From positions 1 to 25,570 of IMG/VR virus record IMGVR_UViG_3300006916_000341: DNA of 25,570 nt. One strand, 5' to 3'. Made by a program: the position numbers and the translations under genes. The notes beneath the pieces were generated by a model. That model was given only the letters and a program-made list of their open reading frames with translations. It ran no database searches and had not been told where the DNA came from. Source of the DNA: a virus. Every line of letters begins with the position of its first letter. Within the stretch, counting starts at the first letter, position 1. Positions 2,207 to 25,149 of the stretch are shown piece by piece.

Positions 2207-3784
2207 ATGGATATAACCCCCTCACCCCTTAAGCATTACGAAACAGTTGAAGAGTACAAAGCCTTTGCCGAAAGATTATTAAAGTTTGAAGATGAGCAAG
2301 AGAAGTTTAAGCTTAATAGGTTATTATGTAGGACTGATTTATATTGGTTATTATGGCATGGATGCGGAAAGCATTACATAGCTCATCAATGGCTACTAGA
2401 TAGATGTAAAGAGGTTGAAGCCAAACCTAATGGCTGTCTAGATCTATGGTCGCGTGAACATTTCAAAAGCACAATAGGAACTTATGGCAAGTGTATTCAA
2501 GATATTATTGCCAGTCATGGTGACGACCCATTGCCTGAATGGGACAGGGAAGTAACTCTTGGCATATTTTCCATCACTAGGCCATTAGCCAAGTCTTTTT
2601 TGCGTGAAATTAAAACTACCTTTGAGAATTCAGCATTACCATTAACAATAATCTTTCCTGATATCTTCTATAAGAATCCAAAAGGTGAAAGCCCTAAATG
2701 GTCAGAAGATGAAGGGATTATTGTTAAGAGGAAATCCATTACCAGAGAGGCTACAGTTGAGGCATGGGGTTTAGTAGATGGACAGCCAACAGGAAAGCAT
2801 TTCTACGGCCTTATATATGATGATATTGTAACAGATAAGAGCGTAACAACCCCAGAAATGATTCAAAAAACAACAGATGCGCTAGCTTTATCATCAAACT
2901 TAGGAACTGAAGGCGGTTTTGAAAGATACTATGGCACAATATATCATGCTAACGACACCTACTCTAAACTAAGAAAGAATAAGTATATCACTACCAGAAT
3001 TTATCCTTGCACTGAAGAGGGAACTTGGCCCGGTACTCCTGTTTTAAAATCAGCGGAGAATCTAGCCAAGAAGTATGCAGCTCAAGGGCCTTATATCTTT
3101 AGTTGTCAGATGTTACTTTCCCCAACTGCCGACTCAATGCAAAGTTTCGATGATGAATGGTTAAGATATTATGGTGGATGGGATAAAAAAAGAATGGTTG
3201 GAAATATATATATCACTTGCGATCCAGCCGGAGCAAAGAAGAAGACCTCGGATTATACCGTGTTTATGGTAGTGGCCGCTGTGTCAGATGGCAATATGTA
3301 TGTGGTGGATATGGTAAGAGATAGATTAAACCTAAAAGAAAGAACCGAAACATTATTTGAATTAGTTCGTGAATATAGACCTATATTAGTTGGGTATGAA
3401 AAATATGGTAAAGATTCAGATATCGAGCATATAGAGGGAGAAATGGAAAGATTAAACTATCGCTTCAAGATCCAGGAGTTAGGCGGTATAACCTCTAAAA
3501 ATGATAGGATAGGCAGATTAATCCCGGACTTTATGAACTCTAGAATATATCTACCTTATGAGCTTTGGAAAAGAGACTATGAAAATAAACCTCGTGATTT
3601 GGTAGAAATATTTAAGAGCGAGGAATACTCAGTATTTCCAGTGCCTGTTCATGATGATATGCTTGACGCTCTAGCAAGAATGAAAGATAAAGACATGCAC
3701 TTGGTATTTCCCCAATACGAAGAAGAAGATGATTATTACGAAGAAGAATTTTCAAAGCGTCCTACCTCAACTACTGGTTATTAA
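2207..3784 (+). CDS. terL: terminase large subunit (TerL), ATPase-nuclease
   Basis: This is the packaging motor that drives DNA into the prohead and cuts the concatemer, docking on the portal. The 525-residue length is normal for TerL. The N-terminal ATPase has a deviant Walker A, WSREHFKST (residues 81-89), with the lysine-serine-threonine retained, and a Walker B strand GLIYDD (201-206). A YYGTIY segment (241-246) fits the coupling motif. The C-terminal RNase H-like nuclease shows the three acidic clusters expected: D339 in TCDPAG, E398 in VGYEKYGKD, and D483/D484 with D487 in HDDMLDAL. The tail is very acidic (EEEDDYYEEE), perhaps for portal contact. The ATG directly follows the upstream stop. 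A 217-nt gap separates it from the portal gene. Confidence 0.95.
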   Translation: MDITPSPLKHYETVEEYKAFAERLLKFEDEQEKFKLNRLLCRTDLYWLLWHGCGKHYIAHQWLLDRCKEVEAKPNGCLDLWSREHFKSTIGTYGKCIQDIIASHGDDPLPEWDREVTLGIFSITRPLAKSFLREIKTTFENSALPLTIIFPDIFYKNPKGESPKWSEDEGIIVKRKSITREATVEAWGLVDGQPTGKHFYGLIYDDIVTDKSVTTPEMIQKTTDALALSSNLGTEGGFERYYGTIYHANDTYSKLRKNKYITTRIYPCTEEGTWPGTPVLKSAENLAKKYAAQGPYIFSCQMLLSPTADSMQSFDDEWLRYYGGWDKKRMVGNIYITCDPAGAKKKTSDYTVFMVVAAVSDGNMYVVDMVRDRLNLKERTETLFELVREYRPILVGYEKYGKDSDIEHIEGEMERLNYRFKIQELGGITSKNDRIGRLIPDFMNSRIYLPYELWKRDYENKPRDLVEIFKSEEYSVFPVPVHDDMLDALARMKDKDMHLVFPQYEEEDDYYEEEFSKRPTSTTGY

Positions 3785-3897
3785 CCTTCTTCTAAACCGA
3801 ATCGTCCCTTTAAAATCCCAAATATCTTAAACTGCTCATAGCCTCTTTGTGTCAAAAATGGACACTCAAACAAGCCTAAAACTGAAAAACTTGACAT
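3781..3897 (-). CDS. possible antisense small ORF, 38 aa
   Basis: On the minus strand an ATG at 3895-3897 opens a 38-codon ORF ending in TAA at 3781-3783, overlapping the last 4 nt of TerL tail to tail. The product contains stretches such as CPFLTQRGYEQFKIFG and ILKGRFGLEEG, a mixed composition that looks more like a protein than like random AT-rich sequence. A weak AAAGG lies about 10 nt upstream on that strand. It is the only plausible minus-strand gene in the window and is not a shadow of a plus-strand gene. It could be a small phage protein, a remnant of a host gene, or chance. Confidence 0.3.
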   Translation of the reverse strand: MSSFSVLGLFECPFLTQRGYEQFKIFGILKGRFGLEEG

Positions 3898-3920
3898 TAA
3901 AAAATAAGCCTTTACATTAT
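3891..3920 (+). promoter_or_regulatory. candidate promoter for the head module
   Basis: A perfect -35 hexamer TTGACA (3891-3896) is followed after 18 nt by CATTAT (3915-3920), or after 16 nt by TACATT (3913-3918), each matching 4 of 6 bases of the -10 consensus. It lies about 80-100 nt upstream of the portal ATG, in the only sizeable gap of the left half, so a transcript start for the head genes here is plausible. The flanking palindrome (3920-3940) would then lie at the transcription start. Confidence 0.4.
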
Positions 3921-3940
3921 TGTATCTTAAGCAGATACAA
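3920..3940. promoter_or_regulatory. palindrome, possible operator or mRNA 5' hairpin
   Basis: TTGTATCT (3920-3927) and AGATACAA (3933-3940) form a perfect 8-bp inverted repeat with a 5-nt centre (TAAGC). It overlaps or immediately follows the candidate -10 element upstream of the portal gene. As DNA it could be a repressor or activator half-site pair; as RNA it would be a 5' hairpin. No U-run follows, so it is not a terminator. The rest of the 3785-3998 gap holds the antisense ORF, a weak GTGTC/GACAC hairpin (3849-3865) and an AT-rich leader. Confidence 0.4.
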
Positions 3941-3998
3941 ATTGCACATGAAGAACTAACCGCAACCGTATCTTGATTGATTAAACTTAATTACATCA

Positions 3999-6125
3999 AT
4001 GGTTAGTTCGACTCTGAAAGACACCTTATCAATAGAAGAAATCTTACAAGCTGACAATATAGTTGAGCTTTTAAGTGAAGATGCTATATCTGAAATATCC
4101 CAACAAGTAAAAGACGATTACGATAAAGACAAGACCTCGTGCGAAGGTAAAATAAATCACATGAAGGATATTGTTGATATGGCCAAGATGGTCACTAAGC
4201 AAAAAAGCTACCCTTGGGAGGGGGCATCAAATGTAATTTATCCACTAATTGCCAATGCCGGTATTGAATACGGTGCAACTCTATATCCAGAAATAATAAA
4301 AGATTCAACCGTTGTTAAGGCTAAAGTTATTGGTAATGATGATGGGGAAGTAGTGCAAACTGCTAATGGCCCTGCTGTTAGCGAAGAAACAGGGGAAGAA
4401 GTATTAACAAATATTGGCTCTAAACAAAAACAAGGTCAAAGAGTCTCGGATTACATGAACTATCAACTTCTTGACGAAATGTCTCACTGGGAAACTGATA
4501 TCGACAAATTGGGTAACGCCCAGCCGATAGTTGGGAACATGTATAAACGGGTTTATTGGGATTTTAACGAAAATAAGCCTGAATCAGAGCTTATATTTCC
4601 TGATAAACTTGTTATTAATGATGGTGCAAGAGATATAGACAGTTGTATAGCAACCCACATCATAGAATTATATCCACAAGAAATAATGACCAGGATTAGA
4701 TCTGGTATGTATATAGAATTTGATCTAATAGATAATGATGATGACCCCATTAATACAGAAGATGAATTAGAAGATAAGGCAAGTTTTAATACTAAGCTTC
4801 ATACATTTCTTGATCAATTTACTTGGTTAGATTTAGATGGTGATGATTATCCAGAGCCCTATATTGTAACTATACACGAAGATAGTGGAGAAGTTGTTAG
4901 GATTGTACCTAGATTTATTGGAACTGACATTAAAAAGAATAAGAAGGGCAAGATAGAAAAGATTACAGCTCAAGAGGAATTAGTTAAATACGGTTTTATC
5001 CCTTCCCCTGATGGCTCATTTTATGACACTTCTTTTGGAACTTTACTATATGGATTAAACGATAGTGTTAATGGAACTTTAAATCAATTATTTGATGCTG
5101 GACATTTAAATATTACTGGTGGCGGATTCATTGGTAAGGGAATGAAGATAAAAGGAGGAAGAATAGCTTTATCACCTGGAGAATGGAAGATGGTTGATAT
5201 TATGGGTGATGATCTAGCAAGAAATATAGTGCCAATTCCACAACCTAAGCCAGACCCTACTTTATTTGCGTTACTTGGTTATTTAGTAGAAGGCGGAAAG
5301 GATATGGCGTTGCTTCGTGATGTATTAAGAGGTGAGGCCGCAGGTAATATTACAGCCACCGCCCATATGTCTATGGTAGAGCAGGGATTAAAGCAATTCA
5401 AATCAATTTATAAAAGATTCTACAAGTCTTTAAAGAAAGAATTAAAATTAATCTATGCTTTAAACGCTAAACATCTTTCTAATGAGAAATATGCAGAGGT
5501 ATTAGATGATGTGAAGGATAATGTTGAGGTTAAACAAGACTTCAACACCACAAACTACAATATATGCCCTGTTGCTGATATCAGCATGATTACTTCTCAT
5601 CAAAGAATGGCGCAAGCTTCATATTTACAGACATATCTTGGCAATCCTTACGTTAATCAAGAAGAGCTTTTAACTAGAATATTAGATATATCTCAAATAG
5701 ATAATGTTGATAAATTAGTACAGACTCCACCGCCTCAAGGCAATCCACAAATGGAAGTTGAGCAATTGAAAGCTCAAACCAAGATGCAAGAGTTGCAAAT
5801 GAAGATGCAAGAATCACAACAAAAACTACAAATTGAAATACAAAAAGCACAAGCAGAAATTGAAAAACTAAACACTGCTTCAATGCTTGATCTGGCCAAT
5901 GTGTCTAAAGTGGGCCAAGGCATAGAAGATGCTGACCAAGAAAGAGAGGTTAAAGTAATGGATAACTTGATTGACCAACAAACAAAGCAAATAGAAGTTG
6001 CTGGGAAATTACAAGAATCTCAAATGAAACTAGAAGGCGAAAGAATGAAATTACAAGGTGCAGCCCTTAAAAATCAACAACTTCAAAATAATACACCAAC
6101 CAAGAAAGAAGTTGAGGCTAAGTAA
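3999..6125 (+). CDS. portal protein, P22 gp1-like
   Basis: This forms the dodecameric portal ring at one capsid vertex, through which TerL pumps DNA and to which the tail factors bind. At 708 residues it matches the long P22-type portals (P22 gp1 is 725). Near the N-terminus is the family signature around SYPWEGASNVIYPLI (70-84). The middle is the clip/stem/wing region. The last 125 residues (584-708) are a Q/K/E-rich heptad region, such as QELQMKMQESQQKLQ, that fits the coiled-coil barrel of P22 portals. The gp4- and gp10-like proteins at 16316-20208 are its expected partners. The start lacks a Shine-Dalgarno sequence and follows an AT-rich leader. Confidence 0.9.
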   Translation: MVSSTLKDTLSIEEILQADNIVELLSEDAISEISQQVKDDYDKDKTSCEGKINHMKDIVDMAKMVTKQKSYPWEGASNVIYPLIANAGIEYGATLYPEIIKDSTVVKAKVIGNDDGEVVQTANGPAVSEETGEEVLTNIGSKQKQGQRVSDYMNYQLLDEMSHWETDIDKLGNAQPIVGNMYKRVYWDFNENKPESELIFPDKLVINDGARDIDSCIATHIIELYPQEIMTRIRSGMYIEFDLIDNDDDPINTEDELEDKASFNTKLHTFLDQFTWLDLDGDDYPEPYIVTIHEDSGEVVRIVPRFIGTDIKKNKKGKIEKITAQEELVKYGFIPSPDGSFYDTSFGTLLYGLNDSVNGTLNQLFDAGHLNITGGGFIGKGMKIKGGRIALSPGEWKMVDIMGDDLARNIVPIPQPKPDPTLFALLGYLVEGGKDMALLRDVLRGEAAGNITATAHMSMVEQGLKQFKSIYKRFYKSLKKELKLIYALNAKHLSNEKYAEVLDDVKDNVEVKQDFNTTNYNICPVADISMITSHQRMAQASYLQTYLGNPYVNQEELLTRILDISQIDNVDKLVQTPPPQGNPQMEVEQLKAQTKMQELQMKMQESQQKLQIEIQKAQAEIEKLNTASMLDLANVSKVGQGIEDADQEREVKVMDNLIDQQTKQIEVAGKLQESQMKLEGERMKLQGAALKNQQLQNNTPTKKEVEAK

Positions 6126-6174: not shown

Positions 6175-6507
6175 ATGAAGGATTTAACGAACTTAAAGAC
6201 AGACTTTAGAGACTGGCTTACCCTACCGCTCACCAAGACTTTTATACAGCTACTCGAAGCAGAGGAAGCAAAGCTATACAAAGGAGCAAATCAATACACT
6301 TTCGCAAATTATCATAAAAAAGAACTAGACCCAACCGCTGTAACAGCTTATGGGAAAATTGATGGTATTCAGGCAGTTCTATCTATATTAGAAGCGTGCA
6401 AAGAAGATGAGCCTGAGATGGTAAAAAATGAGGATGGCGAAGAGATTACAACTTACCCCACTATTGACGCATTATTTGAACAAGCATTTGAAAAAGAAAA
6501 TGATTAA
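6175..6507 (+). CDS. hypothetical head-module protein, 110 aa
   Basis: A small acidic, mostly helical protein between the portal and co-chaperonin genes. It begins with MKDLTNLKTDFRDWLTLP, has an EAEEAKLYKGA helix in the middle and an acidic C-terminus. Many podovirus-type genomes have a short unknown gene just after the portal gene; I recognise no domain. It lies 49 nt after the portal stop and its own end overlaps the next gene by 8 nt, so its translation is coupled to the co-chaperonin. There is no Shine-Dalgarno sequence before its ATG. A role in prohead assembly is inference from position only. Confidence 0.65.
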   Translation: MKDLTNLKTDFRDWLTLPLTKTFIQLLEAEEAKLYKGANQYTFANYHKKELDPTAVTAYGKIDGIQAVLSILEACKEDEPEMVKNEDGEEITTYPTIDALFEQAFEKEND

Positions 6508-6862
6508 CGAAAACTTTAAAGATTTAGATATTAAGGAATTAAGAGAAAAAGCCGGATGTCGTGCTATTGTACTACCTAAAGAAACCAAACTAGCGGTTTA
6601 TATGGGTCGTTTGCATGAACAAAAAACAGATGGAGGTATTATTTTAAGTGAAAAGAATATCCACGAAGAGTCATATAAGAAAACAAGGGGATTAGTAATA
6701 GATATTGCTCACGCCTCTAAAGAAGATGAGGCAAGTTGCAATGTTAAGCAAGGAGATGTTGTTTGCTTCCGCCCTTTTGAGGGTATTCATAAACCGGGAG
6801 TTGATGAAACTTACGGATTTAGATTACTTGCAAGTCATGAAATTCATTCTATTGAAATATAA
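6500..6862 (+). CDS. phage GroES-like co-chaperonin, 120 aa
   Basis: The protein aligns by eye with the Cpn10/GroES fold: a first strand CRAIVLPKE (20-28), a flexible segment with the tripeptide of the GroEL-binding mobile loop in TDGGIILSE (43-51; I47-I48-L49), then TRGLVIDIA (62-70), VKQGDVVCF (82-90) and a final LLASHEIHSIE (109-119). GroES has the same order (GGIVL, RGEVLAVG, VKVGDIVIF, ESDILAI). It is longer than GroES (97 residues) mainly through an N-terminal extension of about 18 residues. By analogy with T4 gp31 it would cap host GroEL and help fold the capsid protein encoded further down. The start at 6500 is preferred to an in-frame ATG at 6428, which would overlap the previous gene by 80 nt. 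Confidence 0.85.
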   Translation: MINENFKDLDIKELREKAGCRAIVLPKETKLAVYMGRLHEQKTDGGIILSEKNIHEESYKKTRGLVIDIAHASKEDEASCNVKQGDVVCFRPFEGIHKPGVDETYGFRLLASHEIHSIEI

Positions 6863-9143: not shown

Positions 9144-10055
9144 ATGACTGGAATTATAGTAAAGGGTAATTTCCCTACAAATACCATCAAAAGTTATGTT
9201 ACCAAATATTATGGTGAATATGACATGCTTGATGCACAATGGAAGCCAATGTTTGAAGTTAGTTCTTCTGACAGGGCTTTTGAACTTGAAGCTTTAACCG
9301 ATAACTTCACAGTTATACCGGCTAAACCAGAAAGTACAAACATTACTTATCAATCAGGACAAGAGCGTTTCAATACTACTTATAATCACACCTCATTCGG
9401 TGGTGGATTCCAAATCTCTAAAGAGGCTAAGGATGATGGCAAAGAATTAGATTTAATAACTAAGTATACACGTCAATTAGGTGATGCTGCAAAGCGTACC
9501 AATGAGATCAATGGTGCTAATGTTATGAATAGAGGTTTTGATTCTTCTTATACTGGAGGCGATGGTGTTGAACTTTATACTACTGCTCATCCTGTTAATT
9601 CTGGAACTCAATCTAATACACTAGCTACTCAAGCTGCTTTATCTGAAGCATCCCTTGAAGATCTATGTATTTTGGTTAAGAAAATGAAAGATTATAATGG
9701 TAACTTTGCTTCAATTAAGACTGATGCATTATGTATTCCACCAGCCCTAGAATTTGAAGCCGAAAGGATTCTTAATTCTGTTGCTCGTGTTGCTACTGCA
9801 AATAATGATCTAAACGCTTTGAGAGCTTCTGGAAAATTCCCTAAAGGCTTTTCAGTTAATCAGTATCTTGATTCTGATAATCGTTTCTTCATTAAAACTT
9901 CAGCTCAAAATGGTATGAAAATGTTTGACAGAACACCACCTGAATTCTCAATGGATTCAGCTTTTGATGCAGAAGTTAGTAAGTACAAAATCTTCTTCAG
10001 AAACAGCTTTGGTTGGACTGACTTTAGAGGAACTGTAGCTTCAGGAAACTTCTAA
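9144..10055 (+). CDS. major capsid protein, HK97-fold
   Basis: At 303 residues, in the canonical place after scaffold genes, this is the best shell subunit. Family hallmarks are an N-terminal helix that positions a tyrosine-rich segment (KSYVTKYYGEYD, 16-27), a long central helix region (DLITKYTRQLGDAAKRTNE), the YTTAHP motif (145-150) seen in HK97-type capsid proteins, a long helix around EASLEDLCILVKKMKDYNG, and a C-terminal strand pair ending in FFRNSFGWTDFRG (284-296). No pro-domain or cleavage site is visible. The leader is AT-rich without a Shine-Dalgarno sequence. A six-G hairpin lies 31-49 nt after its stop. It is the likely main client of the phage GroES-like protein (inference). Confidence 0.85.
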   Translation: MTGIIVKGNFPTNTIKSYVTKYYGEYDMLDAQWKPMFEVSSSDRAFELEALTDNFTVIPAKPESTNITYQSGQERFNTTYNHTSFGGGFQISKEAKDDGKELDLITKYTRQLGDAAKRTNEINGANVMNRGFDSSYTGGDGVELYTTAHPVNSGTQSNTLATQAALSEASLEDLCILVKKMKDYNGNFASIKTDALCIPPALEFEAERILNSVARVATANNDLNALRASGKFPKGFSVNQYLDSDNRFFIKTSAQNGMKMFDRTPPEFSMDSAFDAEVSKYKIFFRNSFGWTDFRGTVASGNF

Positions 10056-11714: not shown

Positions 11715-12116
11715 ATGAAAGTTGAAAGATTTAATTTAAGAAAAAAAGAAGATTTTGATAAATATTACCCCACTTTAAAGAAATGGTGGGAAGATTGGGG
11801 ATTTACACCGCAAACCCCGAATTTACTATCTCAAAACGGATTGATGGTAAGTAAAGATGGTTATAAATGTGCAGGATGGGTTTTTGTTACTGATAGTGAT
11901 GTTTGTGTGTTAGGTTGGTGGATAAGTGATAAAGATGCAGATAAAGAAGGTTGTATGGAGTTTTTGATTACTGAATTAGAAAAGTTAGCAATAACTTTAG
12001 GTTGTAAGGTAAGCATGACACCAGCCAATAATGAATCATTGAAGAAAAAACTAGAAAAACTAGGGCATGGCAATTTTGCCGATAAAAACTATACTAATTA
12101 TTTAAAGAGGCTATAA
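11715..12116 (+). CDS. GNAT-like acetyltransferase-fold protein
   Basis: The 133 residues fit a short GNAT-type fold: helices at LKKWWEDWGF (about 21-30), a strand pair NGLMV and CAGWVFVTDSDVCVLGWWIS, then a helix FLITELEKLAITLGCK and a final strand-helix around NNESLKKKLEKLGHG. Phage late regions often carry a protein of this pattern, annotated as an acetyltransferase, just before the ejection genes. The acetyl-CoA pyrophosphate-binding R/QxxGxG/A loop is not evident, so catalytic activity is uncertain and a purely structural use of the fold is possible. Stop overlaps the next ATG by 1 nt. Confidence 0.55.
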   Translation: MKVERFNLRKKEDFDKYYPTLKKWWEDWGFTPQTPNLLSQNGLMVSKDGYKCAGWVFVTDSDVCVLGWWISDKDADKEGCMEFLITELEKLAITLGCKVSMTPANNESLKKKLEKLGHGNFADKNYTNYLKRL

Positions 12117-12769
12117 TGGGAAAAGCGGCAGGAGCAGTAGCAGGAGGATTCGTAAAGGATGAAGGGATAAAAAGCGGTGTTAAGAGAGCAAGAGCCGGAT
12201 ATGGCGCGCAAATAAGATCTTTACAAGCAGGGAAGAAAGAGGGACTAGGATTTTTACAACCCTATACTGATGTTGGACAAGGCGCTTTAAGTCCTTTATC
12301 AGCTATGCTAACTGGTCGTAGTTATGATCCAGAAACAGGAGAATTTACCGAACTATCCCCAGAAGAAAGATATGCTTCATTTGAAACTTCACCTGGCTAT
12401 CAATTTAGAATGGATGAGGGCATGAGAGGTTTGCAATATCAGCAAAATGCTGGTGGAAGCTTACTATCTGGCGGTGCTTTAAAAGAACTAAGTCAATATA
12501 ATCAAGGTTTAGCCTCACAAGAATATGGTAACTATATAAATAATTTACAGCAACTGGCTGGAGTTGGGCAAGCTTCTGCTGGTCAATCTGCTAATATTGC
12601 TACTGGAACTGCTGGTCAAATAGGAGCGGCGCAACTTGGCTCTGCTAATTTAGCAATGCAAGGTAGAATTGCAAGGGGGCAAAATCAAGCAGATACCTTC
12701 GGAGCTGTAGGTGGGGCCTTTGATTCTTACACTGCTGCAGCTCCAGCTCCAGCAGGCCCTGGTTTTTAA
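12116..12769 (+). CDS. DNA ejection / internal virion protein, small
   Basis: An alanine/glycine/glutamine-rich 217-residue protein. Its conserved core is SPGYQFRMDEG (92-102), then SLLSGGALKEL (115-125) and an alanine-rich helix through about residue 155. I know this pattern from phage DNA transfer/ejection proteins (P22 gp7-type position), in which a short SPGYxFRxxEG...GxLLSGGALK segment recurs. The N-terminus is a Gly/Ala-rich amphipathic stretch that could contact membranes. It is the first of three consecutive ejection genes; its start overlaps the GNAT gene stop by 1 nt. No enzymatic motif is visible. Confidence 0.7.
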   Translation: MGKAAGAVAGGFVKDEGIKSGVKRARAGYGAQIRSLQAGKKEGLGFLQPYTDVGQGALSPLSAMLTGRSYDPETGEFTELSPEERYASFETSPGYQFRMDEGMRGLQYQQNAGGSLLSGGALKELSQYNQGLASQEYGNYINNLQQLAGVGQASAGQSANIATGTAGQIGAAQLGSANLAMQGRIARGQNQADTFGAVGGAFDSYTAAAPAPAGPGF

Positions 12770-12787
12770 TTATACTAAAAGGATATT

Positions 12788-13939
12788 ATGACAAGCATAC
12801 CAATGTTACAATTACCACAAGGGGCTTCAGTAAATGATATAGCTGCAAGAGTCGCGCAAACCAACCTTGCTAATGTTCAAACAAGAGGAGTGCAGCAACA
12901 AACCCAACAAAGGGCACAGTTAGCGCAACAAAGTCAAACTTTAAACGCTCTAAAACAAAAAGGATTGACAGACCCTAAAGCAAGGGCAATAGCAATTCAG
13001 CTAGATCCTGCTTATGGTAAACAATTGCAGGATTATCAAGCTCAACAACAAGAATTTGAAGCTAAAAGGGCTGTATATTGGGGTGGACAAGCAGCGGCAG
13101 CGGCAAAAGCTCCATTAGCAAGTAGACCAGCTATTTATAATAATCTCTACAAAAAAGCTGAAGCGGCTGGTGAAGATGTAAGTGTCTTTCCTTTACCTTC
13201 AGAACAATGGACAGATGCACACCAAGAAACTCTTGATTATATTTCTCAAAGCGCAATAGAGCCGGGCAAACAATTGCAGATGGCGCAAAAAGAAAGAGAG
13301 CTTTCCGCTGAATTGCCATACAAAAGGGCGCAAACTGAAAAAGCTAGATTTGACTTAGATACAGCAAGAAGGGTTGAAGACAGGGCTATTGATTCTGGAC
13401 TATCACCAGAAGCATATAAGGCTGCACAGAATATAAAAGCCAAAGCAGCAGCTACTAAGGCAGTAGAATTGCCACAAGTTCAAGCTAATGCAAAACAGGC
13501 GGTAAAATTACTAGAAGATATATTGCAACATCCAGGAATGGAGAGCATGGTAGGTGTAAAAAACCCGTTTAGTGGAGCGGCAGGCACTTTGATTCCTTTT
13601 TCAGATAGAAAACCGATTGCCGGATCTGATGCGGCAGGATTTCAAGCTAAATTTGATCAGCTACAAGGTAAAAACTTCTTACAAGCGTTTGAAACGCTTA
13701 AGGGTGGCGGACAAATTACAGAAGTTGAAGGTAAAAAAGCTACTGATGCAATATCTAGTATGCAATTATCTACCTCAGAAGAGGAGTTTAGAGCCGCCGC
13801 TCAAGATTTAGCAGAAGTTATTAATGGTGGAGTAGTAAGGGCAGGTGGAAAAGCTATCCCTTTTAAATTTAAAAGAGAGGAAGCGGCTGATTTACAGAGT
13901 TTATCTGATGATGATTTAATGAAACAACTTGGCTTATAA
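12788..13939 (+). CDS. DNA ejection / internal virion protein, middle
   Basis: A 383-residue, alanine/glutamine-rich, highly helical protein with repeated AQQ-type stretches in residues 20-60 and long charged helices at about 175-240. The C-terminal block with LKGGGQITEVEG (304-315), followed by an ATDAISSM helix, is a motif I associate with phage DNA transfer proteins encoded in this position. AAAGGA (12778-12783) serves as ribosome binding site for the ATG at 12788. The stop overlaps the next start by 1 nt. It probably enters the host with the genome to form part of a periplasmic or membrane conduit; that is inference from the family and neighbours. Confidence 0.7.
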   Translation: MTSIPMLQLPQGASVNDIAARVAQTNLANVQTRGVQQQTQQRAQLAQQSQTLNALKQKGLTDPKARAIAIQLDPAYGKQLQDYQAQQQEFEAKRAVYWGGQAAAAAKAPLASRPAIYNNLYKKAEAAGEDVSVFPLPSEQWTDAHQETLDYISQSAIEPGKQLQMAQKERELSAELPYKRAQTEKARFDLDTARRVEDRAIDSGLSPEAYKAAQNIKAKAAATKAVELPQVQANAKQAVKLLEDILQHPGMESMVGVKNPFSGAAGTLIPFSDRKPIAGSDAAGFQAKFDQLQGKNFLQAFETLKGGGQITEVEGKKATDAISSMQLSTSEEEFRAAAQDLAEVINGGVVRAGGKAIPFKFKREEAADLQSLSDDDLMKQLGL

Positions 13940-16329
13940 TGGCAACAAAACTTGAACTTCTACAAGAGGCGAATAACAGAGGTTTATTACCTCCAGAAAA
14001 AGTTACCTTATTGAAAGAGGCGCAAAAAAGAGGTTTAGTTGGCGGTGGAACTCCACAAGCACAACCTCAACAAGAAACATCAACTGGCGAAGAAATAGCA
14101 AGGCCATTTTTAAGGGCTGGAAGAAGTATTGCCGCAGGAATTGGAGGAGTTGGAGATATTGCTCAGGAAGCAGTTTATTTACCTGAAGCAATAGGAAGAG
14201 GTGCAGCAAGAGGTTTAGGCTTCGATGTAGAGCCTTTTGATTACTCTAAAGTAAATACCATAAGCCCAATGATAAGAAAGGGTTTTGATGATCTAACAGG
14301 AGGATTGACAGCCCCAAGAAGTAAAACAGAAGAAGTAGTTGATATTGTTGGCGAAATAGCTGGTGGTGGTTTAGGTGGTGCAATTGGAACTGTTGCAAGA
14401 AAAGCCGCAGACGTAGCGGCCTTAGTAGGAAAAAGAGCAGCCCAAAAAGTAACAGGAATGACAGGTGATTCAAAAGACTTAATAAAAGCCTTTGAAGATA
14501 CCGGGGTAAATCCAACCCTTGCAAATATAGCAGAAGGTCAAGGAACTAAATCTTTTCAAAACCTAGTAGGAAACGCCCCAGGAGGAAGGGGGGCTATCGA
14601 GAGAGCAACGCAAGATCAAATTGACTCATTAACAAAACAAATTGCAGGAATAACTAAAAGCGAAGGCGGAACAATACCACAAGCAGGTAAAGCTATTCAA
14701 GAAGGAGCTAAGACATTTAAAAGTGGAGTCGAGAGAAGAATTAGTAAACTTTATGATGATTTGGATGAGTTTATTCCAAAGGAAGTACCAACAAAAGAAC
14801 TACCTTTACCAAAAAGGCAGGCATTAATGAGTGATGCTAAAGGCGGTCAAAATATTAGTGATACTGATTTAGATGCTGGATTTCAAAACTACAAAGAAGC
14901 CAAAAGAATTGCTAGAGATAGTAAGCCAAAGAGTCTAACCCAATTCATAAAAGAGAATGGAGGCATTTATGATGCTGGAGGTGATTTAAAATCAATGGGA
15001 TTGGATAGTAGAGTTGGATTGATAAGAAAAAATCCATATTTTACTAAAACAACTAAACAAGGGCCGCAACAAATAAGAGTAACCCCTGATGACGTAACCC
15101 AAAGAGCGTGGGAAGAGGGTTATTTTCCAGAATTTACAGAAAGACCTAATACTAATGATTTACTAAATGCTATAAATGAAGAAGCTATTGGTAATGTTAG
15201 AATTAGCGATAAGCAAGGGGGATTAGCGCAAGAATATAACCAAGCTCAAGCTTATTTAAATCAAATAGATGAGTTGGGAATTGATTTTGATAAATATAAA
15301 TTAGCCAAGGGAATAAAAGATGATATTATTACTTCAAACAAAATCCCAACCAACAACTTGAAAACCATAGCCCAAGATGACGCTATCCAAGATGTTGTTG
15401 CGGTAGGGTCAGGAGATACAGCAAAAATACTAGCTCGATACAATGAAATAATAGATGAAGCTGGCAATATAACATACCCAAGACTTAAAACTTTTAGATC
15501 AACAGTAGGTGCAAAACTACAATCTCCAACTCTTCTTGGTGATGAGAAAAGTGCATTAAAGAAGATCTACGGTGCTTTATCTGAAGATATGAAAGAAGCA
15601 GTTGTTGCACAAGGTGGCGAAAAGGGATTGCAAGCATTTAACAAAGCAAACAAAGCTTTTGCCAGACATACAGCATTACTAGATAAAAAGATTGACCCAT
15701 TAATCAAAGCTAAAACACCATCAAAAGTTTATGATTTACTTCTATCTGGAACTAAACAAGGCGGAACTGACACACGCTTAATAATGAGAAACCTTGACCC
15801 AATACAAAAAGACTTTGTAAGAGGTACGGTAGCAAGAGAAATGGGATTAGCTAATGAAGGATTACAAGGTGCGGCAAGAGATACTTTTAGCCCTAACAAG
15901 TTCTTAACTGAATATAACAAGATGCAAAAAATAGGAGCTGAAAAAAACCTATTCACCTCAGAACAAAATGAAGCTTTTACCCAACTTAATAAAGTGATTG
16001 AGTCATTAAAAGAAACTAGCAAGGCGAGGCAAAGCTCAAATAACCTACCATATATGACTTGGGCCGGACTTGGTTATATGTTAAGGGGTGGAGTAGTTGG
16101 AGCTGGTGCAACAGTAGCCGGAGCTAACATCACATCTAAAATGATGACTAATCCAAAGTTTATTAAATGGTTAGCCCAAACTCCAAAAGTAAAACCCTTA
16201 GCAGTGCCAAAACATTTAAAGCAATTATCTATTATAGCAGGTTCAGCAAAAAGCCCTGAGTTATCAGAAGATATTTTAAACTATTTAGAGAGTATAACAA
16301 TAAAAAAGGAGAATAATGGCAACAAGTAA
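13939..16329 (+). CDS. large DNA ejection / internal virion protein
   Basis: A 796-residue protein, the largest of three ejection genes. The N-terminus has a short duplicated motif (LLQEANNRGLLPPEK then LLKEAQKRGLV, residues 7-34), which I know from the start of phage internal virion proteins. Two glycine/alanine-rich amphipathic stretches follow (about 56-95 and 137-165, with EIAGGGLGGAIG). A hydrophobic segment near the C-terminus (about 705-729) could insert into the host membrane. The middle is helical and charged. No lysozyme or transglycosylase motif (for example a clear catalytic E with a GLxQ pattern) was found, so a lytic activity is not claimed. Its last 14 nt overlap the adaptor gene. 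Confidence 0.7.
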   Translation: MATKLELLQEANNRGLLPPEKVTLLKEAQKRGLVGGGTPQAQPQQETSTGEEIARPFLRAGRSIAAGIGGVGDIAQEAVYLPEAIGRGAARGLGFDVEPFDYSKVNTISPMIRKGFDDLTGGLTAPRSKTEEVVDIVGEIAGGGLGGAIGTVARKAADVAALVGKRAAQKVTGMTGDSKDLIKAFEDTGVNPTLANIAEGQGTKSFQNLVGNAPGGRGAIERATQDQIDSLTKQIAGITKSEGGTIPQAGKAIQEGAKTFKSGVERRISKLYDDLDEFIPKEVPTKELPLPKRQALMSDAKGGQNISDTDLDAGFQNYKEAKRIARDSKPKSLTQFIKENGGIYDAGGDLKSMGLDSRVGLIRKNPYFTKTTKQGPQQIRVTPDDVTQRAWEEGYFPEFTERPNTNDLLNAINEEAIGNVRISDKQGGLAQEYNQAQAYLNQIDELGIDFDKYKLAKGIKDDIITSNKIPTNNLKTIAQDDAIQDVVAVGSGDTAKILARYNEIIDEAGNITYPRLKTFRSTVGAKLQSPTLLGDEKSALKKIYGALSEDMKEAVVAQGGEKGLQAFNKANKAFARHTALLDKKIDPLIKAKTPSKVYDLLLSGTKQGGTDTRLIMRNLDPIQKDFVRGTVAREMGLANEGLQGAARDTFSPNKFLTEYNKMQKIGAEKNLFTSEQNEAFTQLNKVIESLKETSKARQSSNNLPYMTWAGLGYMLRGGVVGAGATVAGANITSKMMTNPKFIKWLAQTPKVKPLAVPKHLKQLSIIAGSAKSPELSEDILNYLESITIKKENNGNK

Positions 16330-18787
16330 TTCAAGCGATTTTAACTTAACTCGTAACCAAATAGTAGAAGAATCCTTTAGAGAAATTGGCGTTAAAACTC
16401 CAAATCGTACTTTAACTAGTGAGGAAATGAACGATGGAGCTAGAACCTTAAACCTTCTTATTAAATCCTTAATATCCAAAGGCTCTTTTTTATGGAAGAT
16501 AAAACAAGCAACCTTATTTTCTGTAAATGGTCAATCTAAATATGTTATTGATGGAGCTACTGCTAATGCAACTGAAGAATACACGGAAACCACAACAACA
16601 GCAATAACCTCTAGCGGAGCATCATTGATAAATGTTTCTAGTATTGTTGGTTTTGTTAAGGATTACTTTATAGGTTTAGTACAAGATAATAATACTATTC
16701 ACTGGTCAACAATTAATAGGTTAGGGACTGATACCGTTTTTACTGAAGATTTTAATGATGATACAGGGTTAACTTTTGATAGTGATAAAATAAGGATAGA
16801 ATCAGGAGTGGCGGCATTAGATCCACAAGATGACCCTTCTGAAACATTTAATCAAGACTTTTCCTCCTCTACAGGATTTACCTTTAATGCGAGTGCCACT
16901 GAATTTACAGCCGGACAGCTTCAACAAATAGATATGCGTACCGCAGACGCTACTTTTGCTGCAACGTATACAACTGATGTTAATGGAACGTGGGGAGATG
17001 GAACTTTAACAGGTACGGCGGTTGGTGGCGCAAGTGTTAGTTCTGGTAAATTAGATTTATCATCTGATGATTTAAGATATGTAGAATATAGCGCACCATC
17101 TAATTTGGATGGCGTACAAACAGGAGCTGTAAAATTTAAAGTAACTCCTAACTATTCAGGAACTCCAGCATCAAGCCAATACTTCTTATCTACCACTTTT
17201 GCAAGAGGAAGTTTAGTCAATACGATTGAATATATACATAAATCAAATGGAGCCCTAAGTTATGCTTATTATAATTCTTCTGGAGTTTTAATAGTATCTA
17301 AAGAGATTGCTTGGAGCCCCACAAGTGGTGTTGAATATGAAGTAGAATTTAACTTTGATATGGACGCTGGTATTCAAAATACATTTATAGATGGGGTTCT
17401 TGTAAAAAACTCAACAACAGTCGCCGCCGGAGCTAGAACCAATACAGCAACTTTGGCTATTGTAGGAACTGGAAGAGGTGTAGCCCCAGCAGAAACAAGC
17501 AACTATGAAATAGATGATATAATATTCTTTGATACACTTCAACACACAACAGCGGGGGGCAATTATACACCGGGCTATACAGTTCCAGAAACTATTTATG
17601 ACGGTGATGTAATCACATTACCAACCTTCACTTATTCAGGAATAGGACATATTCAATCTTTTGACTTATTCGCTACTACTGAAGGAAACGCGCCTAGATA
17701 TGTGACTAATGGTCAATACTGGAATGGTGCAGCGTGGGTTGCTAGTGATGATTCATTCGCTCAAGCAAACACAGTAGCAGATGTTAATACTAATATTTCA
17801 ACTTTGACAGCGGCCGATACTATCACAATGAAAATAATAACAGATGATAGCGCAGTTCAAATGTCAGTTGATGATTTAACAATAACATACACTGGAGAAA
17901 TAACCCCTTATCCAACAGATAACCCAACTATTGATATTGACACTGCAATAACTGGAGATATTAAATCATGGTCATCATTTGTAACTTCTATAGTAGCCGT
18001 GGGGTCAGATAGTGTCACTTTTGCCCTATCTAATGATGGGGGATCTACTTATAAATATTGGAATGGCGCATGGTCAACTAGTGATGGTACTTTTGCACAA
18101 AGCGCAAGCGCAACCGATACCAACACTAATATTGTTACCTTCCCTATTGCCACAGGAGGAATGAAGATTAGGTTATTCTTACATTCAGACGATGGGTCAA
18201 CAACTCCAACTATTGGCAATTTAGATGTTAATTATGGGGTAGGTAAGTCTTGTTATTTAGATGATGTTACAACAAACGATAGCGCAAGCGGGAGTGCTGT
18301 TTATGTTTATGAGAAAAAAATCTTAAGACCTGAAAACATACAAAACGCTCAATCTACTTTAGGAACAGATAGCGAGATTCCGATGACTCAATATTCAAGA
18401 GATACTTATTATGATATTCCGGTAAAAAGTACACCAGGAAGATCTAACTTATTCTTTTATGATAAGCAGTTAACTTCTGGACTCATGCATTTATGGCCTG
18501 TGCCTAATTCAGTAGCTAATAAAACGGTGTTTAGCTTCACTGAACAGCTTTTTGACTTTGACACTGCAACAGATGACCCTGATTTCCCGGTGGAGTGGTT
18601 ACAGCCATTAATCCTTATTGTTGCTTATCGTTTAAGTCGTAAATATGGCAGATTAGATTTACAGGAAAAAGAGCAGTTAAAAAGAGATGCTGATGAAGCC
18701 CTAGAAGATGTAGAGGGTTATGACAGGGAGGAAACAAGTATCTACTTTCAACCTGCAAGTAATGTTAATGTTAATAATTACAGATAA
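16316..18787 (+). CDS. P22 gp4-like head-tail adaptor with very large insertion
   Basis: The two ends match tail accessory factor gp4-type proteins. At the N-end RNQIVEESFREIGVKTPNR (13-31) and SLISKGSFLWK (51-61) are the helical bundle that docks on the portal. At the C-end are PENIQ (672-676), LMHLWPVP (723-730), a DPDFPVEWLQPLILIVAYRL stretch (755-774) and YFQPASNV (810-817). Known relatives are about 170-300 residues; here residues about 141-652 are extra. The insertion holds two short repeats (about 143-168 and 178-204), a concanavalin/LamG-like region (about 210-410) and two tandem YWNGAW domains (440-527 and 553-641). The ATG at 16316 has AAGGAG upstream. The insertion probably projects from the neck as a host- or glycan-binding arm (inference). 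Confidence 0.8.
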   Translation: MATSNSSDFNLTRNQIVEESFREIGVKTPNRTLTSEEMNDGARTLNLLIKSLISKGSFLWKIKQATLFSVNGQSKYVIDGATANATEEYTETTTTAITSSGASLINVSSIVGFVKDYFIGLVQDNNTIHWSTINRLGTDTVFTEDFNDDTGLTFDSDKIRIESGVAALDPQDDPSETFNQDFSSSTGFTFNASATEFTAGQLQQIDMRTADATFAATYTTDVNGTWGDGTLTGTAVGGASVSSGKLDLSSDDLRYVEYSAPSNLDGVQTGAVKFKVTPNYSGTPASSQYFLSTTFARGSLVNTIEYIHKSNGALSYAYYNSSGVLIVSKEIAWSPTSGVEYEVEFNFDMDAGIQNTFIDGVLVKNSTTVAAGARTNTATLAIVGTGRGVAPAETSNYEIDDIIFFDTLQHTTAGGNYTPGYTVPETIYDGDVITLPTFTYSGIGHIQSFDLFATTEGNAPRYVTNGQYWNGAAWVASDDSFAQANTVADVNTNISTLTAADTITMKIITDDSAVQMSVDDLTITYTGEITPYPTDNPTIDIDTAITGDIKSWSSFVTSIVAVGSDSVTFALSNDGGSTYKYWNGAWSTSDGTFAQSASATDTNTNIVTFPIATGGMKIRLFLHSDDGSTTPTIGNLDVNYGVGKSCYLDDVTTNDSASGSAVYVYEKKILRPENIQNAQSTLGTDSEIPMTQYSRDTYYDIPVKSTPGRSNLFFYDKQLTSGLMHLWPVPNSVANKTVFSFTEQLFDFDTATDDPDFPVEWLQPLILIVAYRLSRKYGRLDLQEKEQLKRDADEALEDVEGYDREETSIYFQPASNVNVNNYR
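17714..18238 (+). repeat. tandem YWNGAW domain repeat inside the adaptor
   Basis: Two copies of a beta-rich unit are encoded at about 17714-17896 (residues 467-527) and 18056-18238 (residues 581-641). Both show YWNGA(A)W, then a D-x-x-FAQ block, NTNI, a hydrophobic strand, DD/DDG and a closing Y-T/G strand. The copies are diverged, so the duplication is not recent. It lies wholly inside the adaptor insertion. Confidence 0.6.
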
Positions 18788-20851: not shown

Positions 20852-22192
20852 GTGGTACAAACATTATTATTACCTATAGAGCAAGTATTTTCAGACTTAG
20901 GGGCAATAGGGGCTGGATTTAAACTTTATACCTACGAGACAACAACAACAACTCCGTTAGCAACTTATTCTGACACTGCTTTAAGTGTAGCAAATACCAA
21001 TCCAATAATAGCTGATTCAGCAGGGCGTTTCATTCAAACATTTATAGGGGATGCAAAGTTATATAAAGCAGTCTTAAAAGATGCAGATGATAATACAATC
21101 TGGACAGCAGATCCAATTGATCCTAAAGTATTTAGTTTAGATGATTTTGACCCTAGACCTACCTCATTCTGGGGAACTACAGGGGGAACATCTTCAGCCT
21201 ACACTTTAGGTGCCGACCCAGTAGTTTCAACTTATTCTGATACCCAAACTTTCTTTTTGGCTTTTCACATAGCTAATGTAGCCGCCCCAACTTTAACTTA
21301 TGTAAGTGGTGGAGCTGCTTTAAATCTTAAAAAAAGCGATGGAGCTGGTGGTAAAATAGATTTAGAAGCTAATGACGTTTTAACAGGAACTTATGAGGCA
21401 AGAAATGATGGAACTGATATTATTATTTTAAACCCAGAAAAACCAACAAAAATAAAACTTAGTAATGGAGGCGAGCTTACTATTGCAACAGGCGAGATAA
21501 CAATAACTCATTCTAGACATATTGTCGATACTGAATCAGACGCAGCAACAGATGATCTTGAAACGATTAATGGAGGGTCAGCAAATCAAATCATAATTCT
21601 ATCAAACACCGACCCTGCCAGAGTGGTTGTTGTAAAAAACGGAGTAGGAAATATCATTAATATATCAGGAGATATTTCTTTAGAAAATATAAATCAAGAG
21701 ATATATCTTCAATATGATGGTTCAAACTGGGTAGTGCAAAACGTAGGGCAAACGATCCAGACTGTAAATACACAAACGGGAGCGGTTGCAACAGGATCTA
21801 GTCAAATACCTCTTGATGATTCAATACCGCAGAACACAGAAGGGTTTGAAGTCATGTCATTAAGCGTAACTCCTACTAGCGCAGCTAATAACCTATTAAT
21901 TCAGGTTGTGGTTAATTGCGCTATTGATTCAGCATTAACTCCAACTATAGCTTTATTCCAAGATTCAACATCAAATGCGTTAGCGTGTAATACTATGTTT
22001 AATGGCACTAACACAGTGACTCCCTATGTATTCAATCATTACATGGCGGCAGGAACGGCCTCTTCAACAACATTTAAAGTTAGAATAGGGTCATCTAGTG
22101 CAACAACCATGACCTTCAACGGTTTTAGTAGTGCTAGGAAATTTGGTGGCGTTTTAGCCTCTTCAATAACAATAACTGAAATACAGGCATAA
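20852..22192 (+). CDS. tail fibre protein
   Basis: The start is GTG; the frame is closed by TAA at 20837, so no upstream ATG is possible. The N-terminal 90 residues (LPIEQVFSDLGAIGAGFKLY, then T-Y-E-T and a TPLATYSDTALS strand, ADSAGRF, IWTADPID) are the attachment domain seen in many podovirus fibres/spikes. A middle beta segment contains ITHSRHIVDTESDAATDDLE and INGGSANQ, a common fibre repeat block. The C-terminal domain from about 308 (QTGAVATGSSQIPLDDSIPQ) to 446 is a beta-sandwich tip likely to contact the receptor. No catalytic spike motif is seen, so it is a binding fibre rather than a depolymerase. Weak ribosome binding site. Confidence 0.75.
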   Translation: MVQTLLLPIEQVFSDLGAIGAGFKLYTYETTTTTPLATYSDTALSVANTNPIIADSAGRFIQTFIGDAKLYKAVLKDADDNTIWTADPIDPKVFSLDDFDPRPTSFWGTTGGTSSAYTLGADPVVSTYSDTQTFFLAFHIANVAAPTLTYVSGGAALNLKKSDGAGGKIDLEANDVLTGTYEARNDGTDIIILNPEKPTKIKLSNGGELTIATGEITITHSRHIVDTESDAATDDLETINGGSANQIIILSNTDPARVVVVKNGVGNIINISGDISLENINQEIYLQYDGSNWVVQNVGQTIQTVNTQTGAVATGSSQIPLDDSIPQNTEGFEVMSLSVTPTSAANNLLIQVVVNCAIDSALTPTIALFQDSTSNALACNTMFNGTNTVTPYVFNHYMAAGTASSTTFKVRIGSSSATTMTFNGFSSARKFGGVLASSITITEIQA

Positions 22193-22193
22193 C

Positions 22194-22712
22194 ATGAGCA
22201 ATATAATAAAAGCAATTCAAGAAATTTACCCAGATATCGAAGGAGGTTTTGTTTATTGGGAAACTAAACAAGATGGCACTCCTTTAGATAATCCGGAGGA
22301 TGGTTTAATCTGGGAGAATATAGAATATTCAAAGCCTCTTTGGTCTAATGTTGAGGCCAAGTTAAATGAGGTTGATTTACAAGAAGCTAAAGATGCTAAA
22401 ACAACAGAAATAGAACAAGCAAGAAAAGATTATCAATACTCTAATATTACCTTTGAGGGCAATGATTATCTAGCAACCTTCACAGCTCAAACTAAGTTTT
22501 ATAATTTATTATCTTTGTCAACTGGTGATATTGATTGGAGATTAGCAGATTGTGTTACATGGATAACTTTAACACAAACACAGGCTATAGCCTTAAAAGA
22601 TGTTATTATAGCAAGAGAATCAGCCGCCTATCAACATGAAAGCACAAAAATTATTGATATTAACAATGCTATTGATGTAGAAGCTGTAAATGCGATTGAT
22701 TGGACGTTATGA
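22194..22712 (+). CDS. DUF4376-type tail fibre-associated protein
   Basis: The 172-residue product has an N-terminal domain (GGFVYWETKQDG, NPEDGLIWENIEYSKP) and a helical C-terminal DUF4376-like domain, about residues 60-165. That domain shows a long helix EAKDAKTTEIEQARKDYQYS, FEGNDYLATFTAQTKF, a W near WITLTQTQAIALKD and a helix IIARESAAYQHE. DUF4376 proteins are encoded right after phage tail fibre genes and are thought to be fibre assembly chaperones or fibre-associated factors. That fits here: the gene starts 2 nt after the fibre stop. Its end overlaps a tiny membrane-protein gene by ATGA. Confidence 0.75.
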   Translation: MSNIIKAIQEIYPDIEGGFVYWETKQDGTPLDNPEDGLIWENIEYSKPLWSNVEAKLNEVDLQEAKDAKTTEIEQARKDYQYSNITFEGNDYLATFTAQTKFYNLLSLSTGDIDWRLADCVTWITLTQTQAIALKDVIIARESAAYQHESTKIIDINNAIDVEAVNAIDWTL

Positions 22713-23558: not shown

Positions 23559-23965
23559 TGCAAAAACTAAAACTAACTAGAAAATATAGGCATTACGAGG
23601 CAACAATTGGCACTTTATTTTTAAATGATAAAGAGATTTGCAAAACTCTAGAAAATCCCTGGTTACTTAACGCCCCTTTTCTTTCTTGTATTCCAGAAGG
23701 CACTTATGCTGCTAAGAAATATAATAGCACTAAATACCCTGATGTTTGGGAATTGCAAGACGTTAAGGGTAGGACTTTAATCTTAATACATATAGGTAAT
23801 CGTGTCAGAGATACATCAGGCTGTATTCTAGTTGGTGAATATTGGGGCTTTTATAGGGATGAATTAGCAGTCTTGAAATCTGGAGACACTTTAAGAATGT
23901 TAAGAAAAAAGCTAGATGATGAATTTACTATTGAAATAAAAGAAATTAAGGAAGCAAAAACATGA
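23558..23965 (+). CDS. DUF5675 family protein, probable lysis/cell-wall enzyme
   Basis: The 135-residue protein matches the DUF5675 pattern: LTRKYRHYEATIGTLF (6-21), CKTLENPW (28-35), CIPEGTY (44-50), then ILIHIGN (75-81) and DTSGCILVG (85-93). H78 with S87-x-C89 resembles the H...SxGC arrangement of L,D-transpeptidase (YkuD-type) active sites, so a peptidoglycan-modifying role is plausible but unproven. No signal peptide is present, so export would need a holin, and a holin-like gene ends one nucleotide into this start. No lysozyme or amidase gene is otherwise visible in the window, which makes this the main endolysin candidate. ATGA overlap with the following gene. Confidence 0.65.
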   Translation: MQKLKLTRKYRHYEATIGTLFLNDKEICKTLENPWLLNAPFLSCIPEGTYAAKKYNSTKYPDVWELQDVKGRTLILIHIGNRVRDTSGCILVGEYWGFYRDELAVLKSGDTLRMLRKKLDDEFTIEIKEIKEAKT

Positions 23966-25149
23966 GTATTACAAGCAGTATTACATCCAATATAATCAGT
24001 AACGTCACTAGTAGTATTGTTGCTGGTGTAGGAGATCCAGATGCGGGTAAATTTATATCTACTTGGAAAACAGACAACGCTGGTACTTCTAATAACGACC
24101 AAGTATCGTTACCTTTAGAATCAGTAGGCACTTATGATTTTACCGTTGATTGGGGTGACGGCACATCAGACACAATTACTGTATGGAATCAAGCGGAAAC
24201 AACACATACTTATTCTGTAGCTGGGACTTATACCATAAATATAACTGGACAATGTGAAGGGTGGGGGTTTAACAACGGCGGTGATAAATCAAAGCTTCTA
24301 GAGGTTAAAAATTGGGGTACAAGCTTTAGATTAGGTAATTCCAATAGTTATTTCTTTGGGTGTAATAATTTAACTATTACTGCCACTGATATTTTAAATT
24401 TCAGTGGAACCATAGACTGTTTTCAGGCTTTTAGAGCTTGTGCAAGTATCATCAACATACCTAATATAAACAACTGGAATGTCTCTAGTGTTACTGATAT
24501 GAACAGTATGTTTAGATTATGCACCAACTTCGCATCAGACGTTAGTGGTTGGGATGTCTCTAGTGTTACTGATATGAACAATATGTTCAGGGCTTGTCCT
24601 AATTTTACGTCAGCAGTTAACAATTGGGATGTCTCTAGTGTTACTGATATGAGGAGTGCATTTAATGGTTGCACCAACTTCGCATCAGATGTGAGTGGTT
24701 GGAATGTCTCTAGTGTTACTGATATGAACAGTATGTTTAGATTATGCACCAACTTCGCATCAGACGTTAGTGGTTGGGATGTATCCAATGTCACCGATAT
24801 GAATAGTATGTTCAGGGCTTGTCCTAATTTTACGTCAGCAGTTAACAATTGGGATGTCTCTAATGTCACTGATATGAACAGTATGTTTAGATCATGCACC
24901 AACTTCGCATCAGATATTAGTGGTTGGGATGTATCCAATGTCACCGATATGACTAACTTATTGAATGGTACTTCATTTAGTCAAACTAACTATGATTTAT
25001 TATTAGTAGCTTGGGAGGCTCAACTAGTACAAAATAACGTTCCTTTTCATGCTGGTGCAGCAAAATATGGAGCTGGCGCACCAGCAACAGCAAGGGCGGC
25101 TCTTATTGCTGATCACAATTGGACAATAACCGATGGTGGTCCAGCTTAA
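23962..25149 (+). CDS. PKD + BspA-type (DUF285) repeat surface protein
   Basis: The 395-residue product starts with a polar S/T/I-rich stretch (MSITSSITSNIISNVTSS), then a PKD-like beta domain (about 47-98) with VDWGDGTSD and HTYSVAGTYTINITG. Residues 172-333 hold DUF285 (BspA-type leucine-rich) repeats: W(D/N)VS(S/N)VTDMNSMFRxCxNF units of 25 residues, six full and one partial. The C-terminus, AGAAKYGAGAPATARAALIA and then DHNWTITDGG, matches the usual DUF285 end. In bacteria such proteins are surface adhesins. In a phage it may be a virion adhesin or a cargo protein; the N-terminus is not a Sec signal. No enzymatic motif seen. Confidence 0.8.
   Translation: MSITSSITSNIISNVTSSIVAGVGDPDAGKFISTWKTDNAGTSNNDQVSLPLESVGTYDFTVDWGDGTSDTITVWNQAETTHTYSVAGTYTINITGQCEGWGFNNGGDKSKLLEVKNWGTSFRLGNSNSYFFGCNNLTITATDILNFSGTIDCFQAFRACASIINIPNINNWNVSSVTDMNSMFRLCTNFASDVSGWDVSSVTDMNNMFRACPNFTSAVNNWDVSSVTDMRSAFNGCTNFASDVSGWNVSSVTDMNSMFRLCTNFASDVSGWDVSNVTDMNSMFRACPNFTSAVNNWDVSNVTDMNSMFRSCTNFASDISGWDVSNVTDMTNLLNGTSFSQTNYDLLLVAWEAQLVQNNVPFHAGAAKYGAGAPATARAALIADHNWTITDGGPA
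24475..24957 (+). repeat. 75-bp tandem repeats with a 225-bp super-repeat
   Basis: Seven units start at TGG codons 24475, 24550, 24625, 24700, 24775, 24850 and 24925 (the last partial). Unit 1 (24475-24549) and unit 4 (24700-24774) are identical at DNA level by eye; unit 2 and unit 5 share their second halves exactly, and units 3 and 6 are similar. The array therefore looks like a duplicated three-unit block (24475-24699 and 24700-24924) patched by conversion. It is coding (DUF285 repeats) and is not a CRISPR array: the units are contiguous with no spacers. Confidence 0.8.

Follow-up and report, generated by a model that had tools for sequence, protein, structure and literature searches.

The window, the whole stretch of DNA analysed (25,570 bases), is IMG/VR virus record IMGVR_UViG_3300006916_000341 and carries a structural block of the P22/SU10-like kind. 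Its relevant features are the following.

2207-3784: terminase
3999..6125, + strand: P22/SU10-type portal protein, by family matches
9144-10055: capsid
12116-16329: ejection-type proteins
16316..18787, + strand (stop included): gp4-type head-tail adaptor with insertion, 823 aa
16316..16729, + strand: adaptor N-terminal part, residues 1-138, aligned to 312-aa gp4 proteins
16730..18244, + strand: inserted module, residues ~139-643, about 505 aa, absent from relatives and homologous to free-standing phage proteins
16730..16942, + strand: N-terminal strands of the insert, residues 139-209, with the motif DF..(D/S)TG(L/F)TF twice
16943..17581, + strand: predicted LamG/concanavalin A-like jelly roll, residues 210-422, by Foldseek and VIA-align
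17597..17902, + strand: YWNGAAW beta-domain copy 1, residues 428-529, internal repeat (strands 293-391 and helix 349-358 of the model)
17903..18241, + strand: YWNGAW beta-domain copy 2, residues 530-642, internal repeat (strands 400-504 and helix 461-470 of the model)
18245..18784, + strand: adaptor C-terminal part, residues 644-823, the remaining beta-domain followed by two helices
18787..20208, + strand: gp10-like packaged-DNA stabilisation protein/head closure Hc3, 473 aa
20852-22712: fibre-like genes

The adaptor gene lies downstream of the portal and coat genes and directly upstream of gp10/Hc3, which is the gene order of a P22 gp4-type adaptor. The 473-aa product of the latter gene matched phrog_578 (E 1.2e-98) and showed 50-56% identity to its relatives. 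Further downstream, the fibre-like gene at 20852-22192 has an N-terminus that, judged by eye, is head-binding-like, and the one at 22194-22712 matches tail fibre PHROGs. Two other genes were noted in the window. Between the portal and capsid genes, positions 6428-6862 encode 144 aa that match the PHROG 'co-chaperonin GroES' (E 7.6e-8), and positions 23962-25149 encode a protein of 395 aa that opens with a PKD-like segment and contains DUF285 (BspA-type) repeats (Pfam E 6.8e-61); it is likely a surface or adhesion protein.

The 823-aa ORF is intact, with no internal stops. The initial annotation had proposed that both ends of its product match gp4-type adaptors, and the identity to relatives, the family matches and a modelled fold all agree with this. 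Residues 1-138 and 644-823 showed 42-45% identity to gp4-type adaptors of about 312 aa encoded directly upstream of gp10/Hc3, whose loci were retrieved via the neighbouring gp10 gene. The C-terminal part by itself matched phrog_12985 (E 2.8e-21) and showed 28-46% identity to relatives. Among 21 of these relatives, 20 matched SU10_adaptor and four P22_Tail-4 in Pfam, while 15 matched the PHROG 'head-tail adaptor Ad3'; matches to phrog_637 were also found, and the family profile reached the P22 gp4 chains in the PDB (E ~1.5e-4). The window protein itself scored 17.4 bits against SU10_adaptor (E 0.0062), under the cut-off of 27, so its assignment to gp4 rests on the family matches of its relatives and on the fold. 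Models were made separately for the insert and for L012, the 312-aa relative that is 42-45% identical to the ends of the window protein. Of the solved structures that VIA-align compared with the L012 model (pLDDT 85), P22 gp4 (8u10_m) was the best match, with a Z of 14.8 and an rmsd of 3.0 over 123 residues. The model also gave Z of about 10 with the T7 gp11 and SU10 adaptors and retrieved many portal-tail adaptors in Foldseek. From their sequence, then, the ends of the window protein are those of a gp4-type adaptor, with a fold predicted through L012.

Between these ends lie about 505 residues absent from the relatives, in good agreement with the insertion of some 510 residues described initially. 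Its limits had been placed at 16736-18271; these were right to within about nine residues, the C-terminal side being the one that was off, and the alignments put the module at 16730-18244. No single known family covers the full length of the protein. The codon usage and G+C content of the insert are those of the neighbouring genes. An intein or intron was ruled out, as the reading frame continues without stops, the inserted segment corresponds to a known protein module and no part of the window matched an RNA-intron family in Rfam. A fusion of two genes was also discarded because the adaptor sequence picks up again after the insert.

According to the secondary structure of the L012 model, residues 1-138 comprise two helices, half of a bundle, and the first half of a small beta-domain. 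The insertion point falls at the beta-turn that links strand 128-137 of L012 to strand 140-143, within a beta-domain of about 75 aa (L012 residues 88-162). The insertion is thus internal and leaves the adaptor core intact, as do the CBM insertions of the evolved Dit type. The beta-domain that hosts it, placed mid-chain between two helix pairs, is optional in the family: it is present in the adaptors of about 312 aa and missing from some relatives of about 225-243 aa. It resembles beta-domains of a tail tube, tailspikes and tail tips (Z 12.3 with the Mystique tail tube), and this resemblance suggests that it, too, is an inserted module. This tail-tube-type match is clearer than the alignment of the T7 and SU10 adaptors with the L012 model, which covered 115-197 residues at an rmsd of 4.6-9.3 Å.

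The model of the insert (residues 139-652) reached a pLDDT of 89. It is in keeping with the LamG/concanavalin-like region noticed at the outset, as are Foldseek and VIA-align: the largest domain of the insert is, as modelled, a ConA/LamG jelly roll. Its match to the sugar-binding domain (domain 4) of arabinanase AbnA had a Z of 20.2 and an rmsd of 2.7 Å over 191 residues, and other matches included sialidase CBM40s, lectins and the CBM of the J-1 Dit (5ly8). Matches to clostridial neurotoxins reflect the common jelly roll only and have no bearing on toxicity. Pfam found no LamG match in the window protein itself; two of the five members of A6, a set of insert homologues, matched Laminin_G_3 (best E 4.5e-5). 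The two copies of a YWNGAW beta domain that had been proposed are indeed present, with 37% identity over 62 aa (BLASTP E ~2e-9), a value that rules out a chance repeat. The fold hit lists for the insert were filled by the jelly roll and barely probed the folds of the YWNGxW domains.

Initial sequence searches with the insert against phages, plasmids, genome contigs, phylum samples and PDB sequences returned nothing convincing, which was a problem of sensitivity and not an absence of homologues. A DNA pattern for YWNGxAW combined with local phmmer, then widened by profile, recovered free-standing phage proteins of about 494-874 aa (L254, L349, L361, L374, L379, L384-L397 and others), and the insert is accordingly no orphan. 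It aligns with them end to end at 29-42% identity and in the same domain order; L254 and L371 have one additional copy of the DF..(D/S)TG(L/F)TF motif. The start codons of these proteins fall at, or close to, the point where the insert begins, and they continue for about 100 aa or more past its end in a C-terminal domain, which in L385 is CarboxypepD_reg/Ig-like at sub-threshold level. Where neighbours were examined, their genes were mostly found among those for portal, maturation protease and major capsid, in phages with very different gene sets, including one tail-sheath (myovirus) locus. In two larger phage proteins, L398 (1159 aa) and L399 (1393 aa), only the YWNGxW region matches, and it therefore also occurs without LamG. 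Neither the window nor the flanks of those adaptor-bearing relatives that were examined contained the insert a second time as a separate copy. As judged by these alignments, the module is one copy of a phage protein family whose members otherwise stand alone, and is not new in itself. Its transfer into the gp4 adaptor is the likely direction because the insertion is so rare among adaptors, and the likely donor is this widespread, largely unannotated LamG/YWNGxW family encoded in virion gene blocks.

The insertion of about 505 aa was found in a single phage among some 160 distinct complete adaptor ORFs, a tally that counts the window gene twice (as L001 and as the window). Adaptors of this branch are typically about 220-335 aa, against the 170-300 residues assumed at first. 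The three other ORFs above 600 aa in the tally owe their length solely to the fusion of two gp4 copies. Tandem adaptors with two full copies per ORF, about 626-637 aa, were observed at L107:3566-5476, at L109:3503-5386 and in L240 (ORF ending at 6501; Gluconacetobacter sacchari); with such a fused pair, six chains could make a 12-unit ring. Gp4-type phage genes also occurred in L238 and L241, contigs titled as archaeal MAGs, which are probably wrongly binned phage contigs. Smaller inserts in the same region were seen in two other relatives. L441:3185-4432 encodes a 416-aa adaptor with an insert of about 100 aa, placed in another loop of the beta-domain that also hosts the window insert. L150 has two gp4-type genes side by side (2853-4001 and 4001-4927), the upstream one encoding 382 aa with SU10_adaptor above the cut-off and a longer, unassigned segment that replaces the beta-domain. 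These three different inserts, that of the window and those of L441 and L150, suggest that the middle of gp4-type adaptors might be a general cassette site for swappable surface modules, forming a neck-borne adhesion apparatus of podoviruses apart from fibres and spikes; we advance this tentatively, as a generalisation with the balance somewhat against it.

For the window protein itself, the reading that we prefer, and to which we give a little better than an even chance, is that a domain transfer provided a P22-type neck with up to 12 putative glycan-binding arms for accessory adsorption. A short-tailed (P22/SU10-like) phage would have gained the module, with its LamG and two YWNGxW domains in about 505 residues, by in-frame recombination, and the module would sit in a surface turn of the gp4-type adaptor without disturbing the core. 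The core would still form a dodecameric ring between portal and gp10, and each subunit would bear one folded arm, up to 12 of them pointing outward around the neck. The arms may act as an accessory adhesin, by weak, multivalent binding of host-surface or extracellular polysaccharide, beside the dedicated tail fibres encoded downstream. Three general considerations run against this proposal: LamG/ConA folds also have non-sugar roles, which weakens the case for glycan-binding arms; the neck lies behind the tail tip, which weakens that for adsorption; and a single phage carries this insertion. In spite of them, accessory adsorption seems the most likely role, because the fold is of a type that binds sugars, CBMs inserted into Dit promote adsorption (PMC10688798) and CBMs occur at the neck of 936 phages (PMC6669499).

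The main rival reading gives the insert a structural or stabilising role, as a decoration packed on the capsid or portal vertex that reinforces the neck and binds no host sugar; we consider it rather unlikely. Genes of the free-standing relatives lie among those for head proteins (portal, protease, major capsid), as one would expect of a protein associated with the capsid. In the R4C adaptor, 12 peripheral Ig-like domains have been read as local stabilisers, a part in adsorption being argued to be improbable (PMC10276861), an argument that also counts against the role we favour. Yet a clamp could be far smaller than a multi-domain arm of about 505 residues, the arm occurs in no other relative among about 160, and its largest domain is nearest to carbohydrate-binding folds. 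This last point also bears on a quite improbable alternative, namely that a long tail fibre is held, or replaced, by the insert, which would occupy the fibre-dock region of T7 and SU10. A fibre-dock domain is found in the T7, KP32 and SU10 adaptors, P22 and Sf6 being without it (PMC9509320), and the optional beta-domain would agree with such a position, lying as it does mid-chain between helix pairs. However, the insert is like lectins and unlike docks, and the phage has its own fibre-like genes (20852-22192 and 22194-22712). Finally, as the insertion is known from one contig, in one copy, and matches genes of other phages, an assembler might have placed within a normal gp4 gene a LamG-module gene that belongs to a different phage. 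We regard such a chimera as very improbable, because the reading frame is maintained across both junctions, which coincide exactly with the beta-turn and the module boundaries, codon usage and G+C agree with those of the neighbours, and identity between the insert and the free-standing copies compared is no higher than 29-42%.

Putative glycan-binding arms on the adaptor had been presented initially as what could be a new apparatus. The novelty stands in that such an insertion had not been found before in this kind of adaptor, until now thought to be a pure connector, but neither the module nor the device of lectin-like insertions in virion parts is new (PMC10688798, PMC6669499, PMC10276861). 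The occurrence of sugar-binding-type modules on virion parts, known from baseplates, tail tubes and collars, extends with this protein to the gp4-type adaptor. Should the arms bind glycans of the host, short-tailed phages would not rely on spikes and fibres alone to recognise it, and the precise turn that tolerated the insertion offers a testable display site.

Compared with known systems, the protein is like the P22 gp4, SU10 and T7 gp11 adaptors in its position upstream of gp10, its helix pairs at both ends and its fold match, whereas P22 gp4 has 166 aa, the branch of the window about 312 aa and the window protein about 505 residues more. The free-standing LamG/YWNGxW phage proteins differ from the insert in being separate genes with an extra C-terminal domain. 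In roseophage R4C every one of the 12 adaptor subunits bears an accessory beta-domain (PMC10276861), a copy number that would also apply here, but it is a siphophage adaptor and its domain is single, Ig-like, not lectin-like and a proposed stabiliser. The neck passage structures of 936 phages display CBMs around the head-tail connector (PMC6669499), where the putative arms of the window protein would also lie; in those phages the CBMs belong to a separate collar or fibre protein, whereas here the module is on the adaptor itself. A further parallel is the 'evolved' Dit of lactococcal skunaviruses and Lactobacillus phage J-1, a structural protein of the tail that likewise keeps its core intact around an internal CBM insertion (PMC10688798). 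There, the host protein is the distal tail ring and the insert has 168-319 aa in the phages described, while in the window a gp4-type adaptor at the neck carries about 505.
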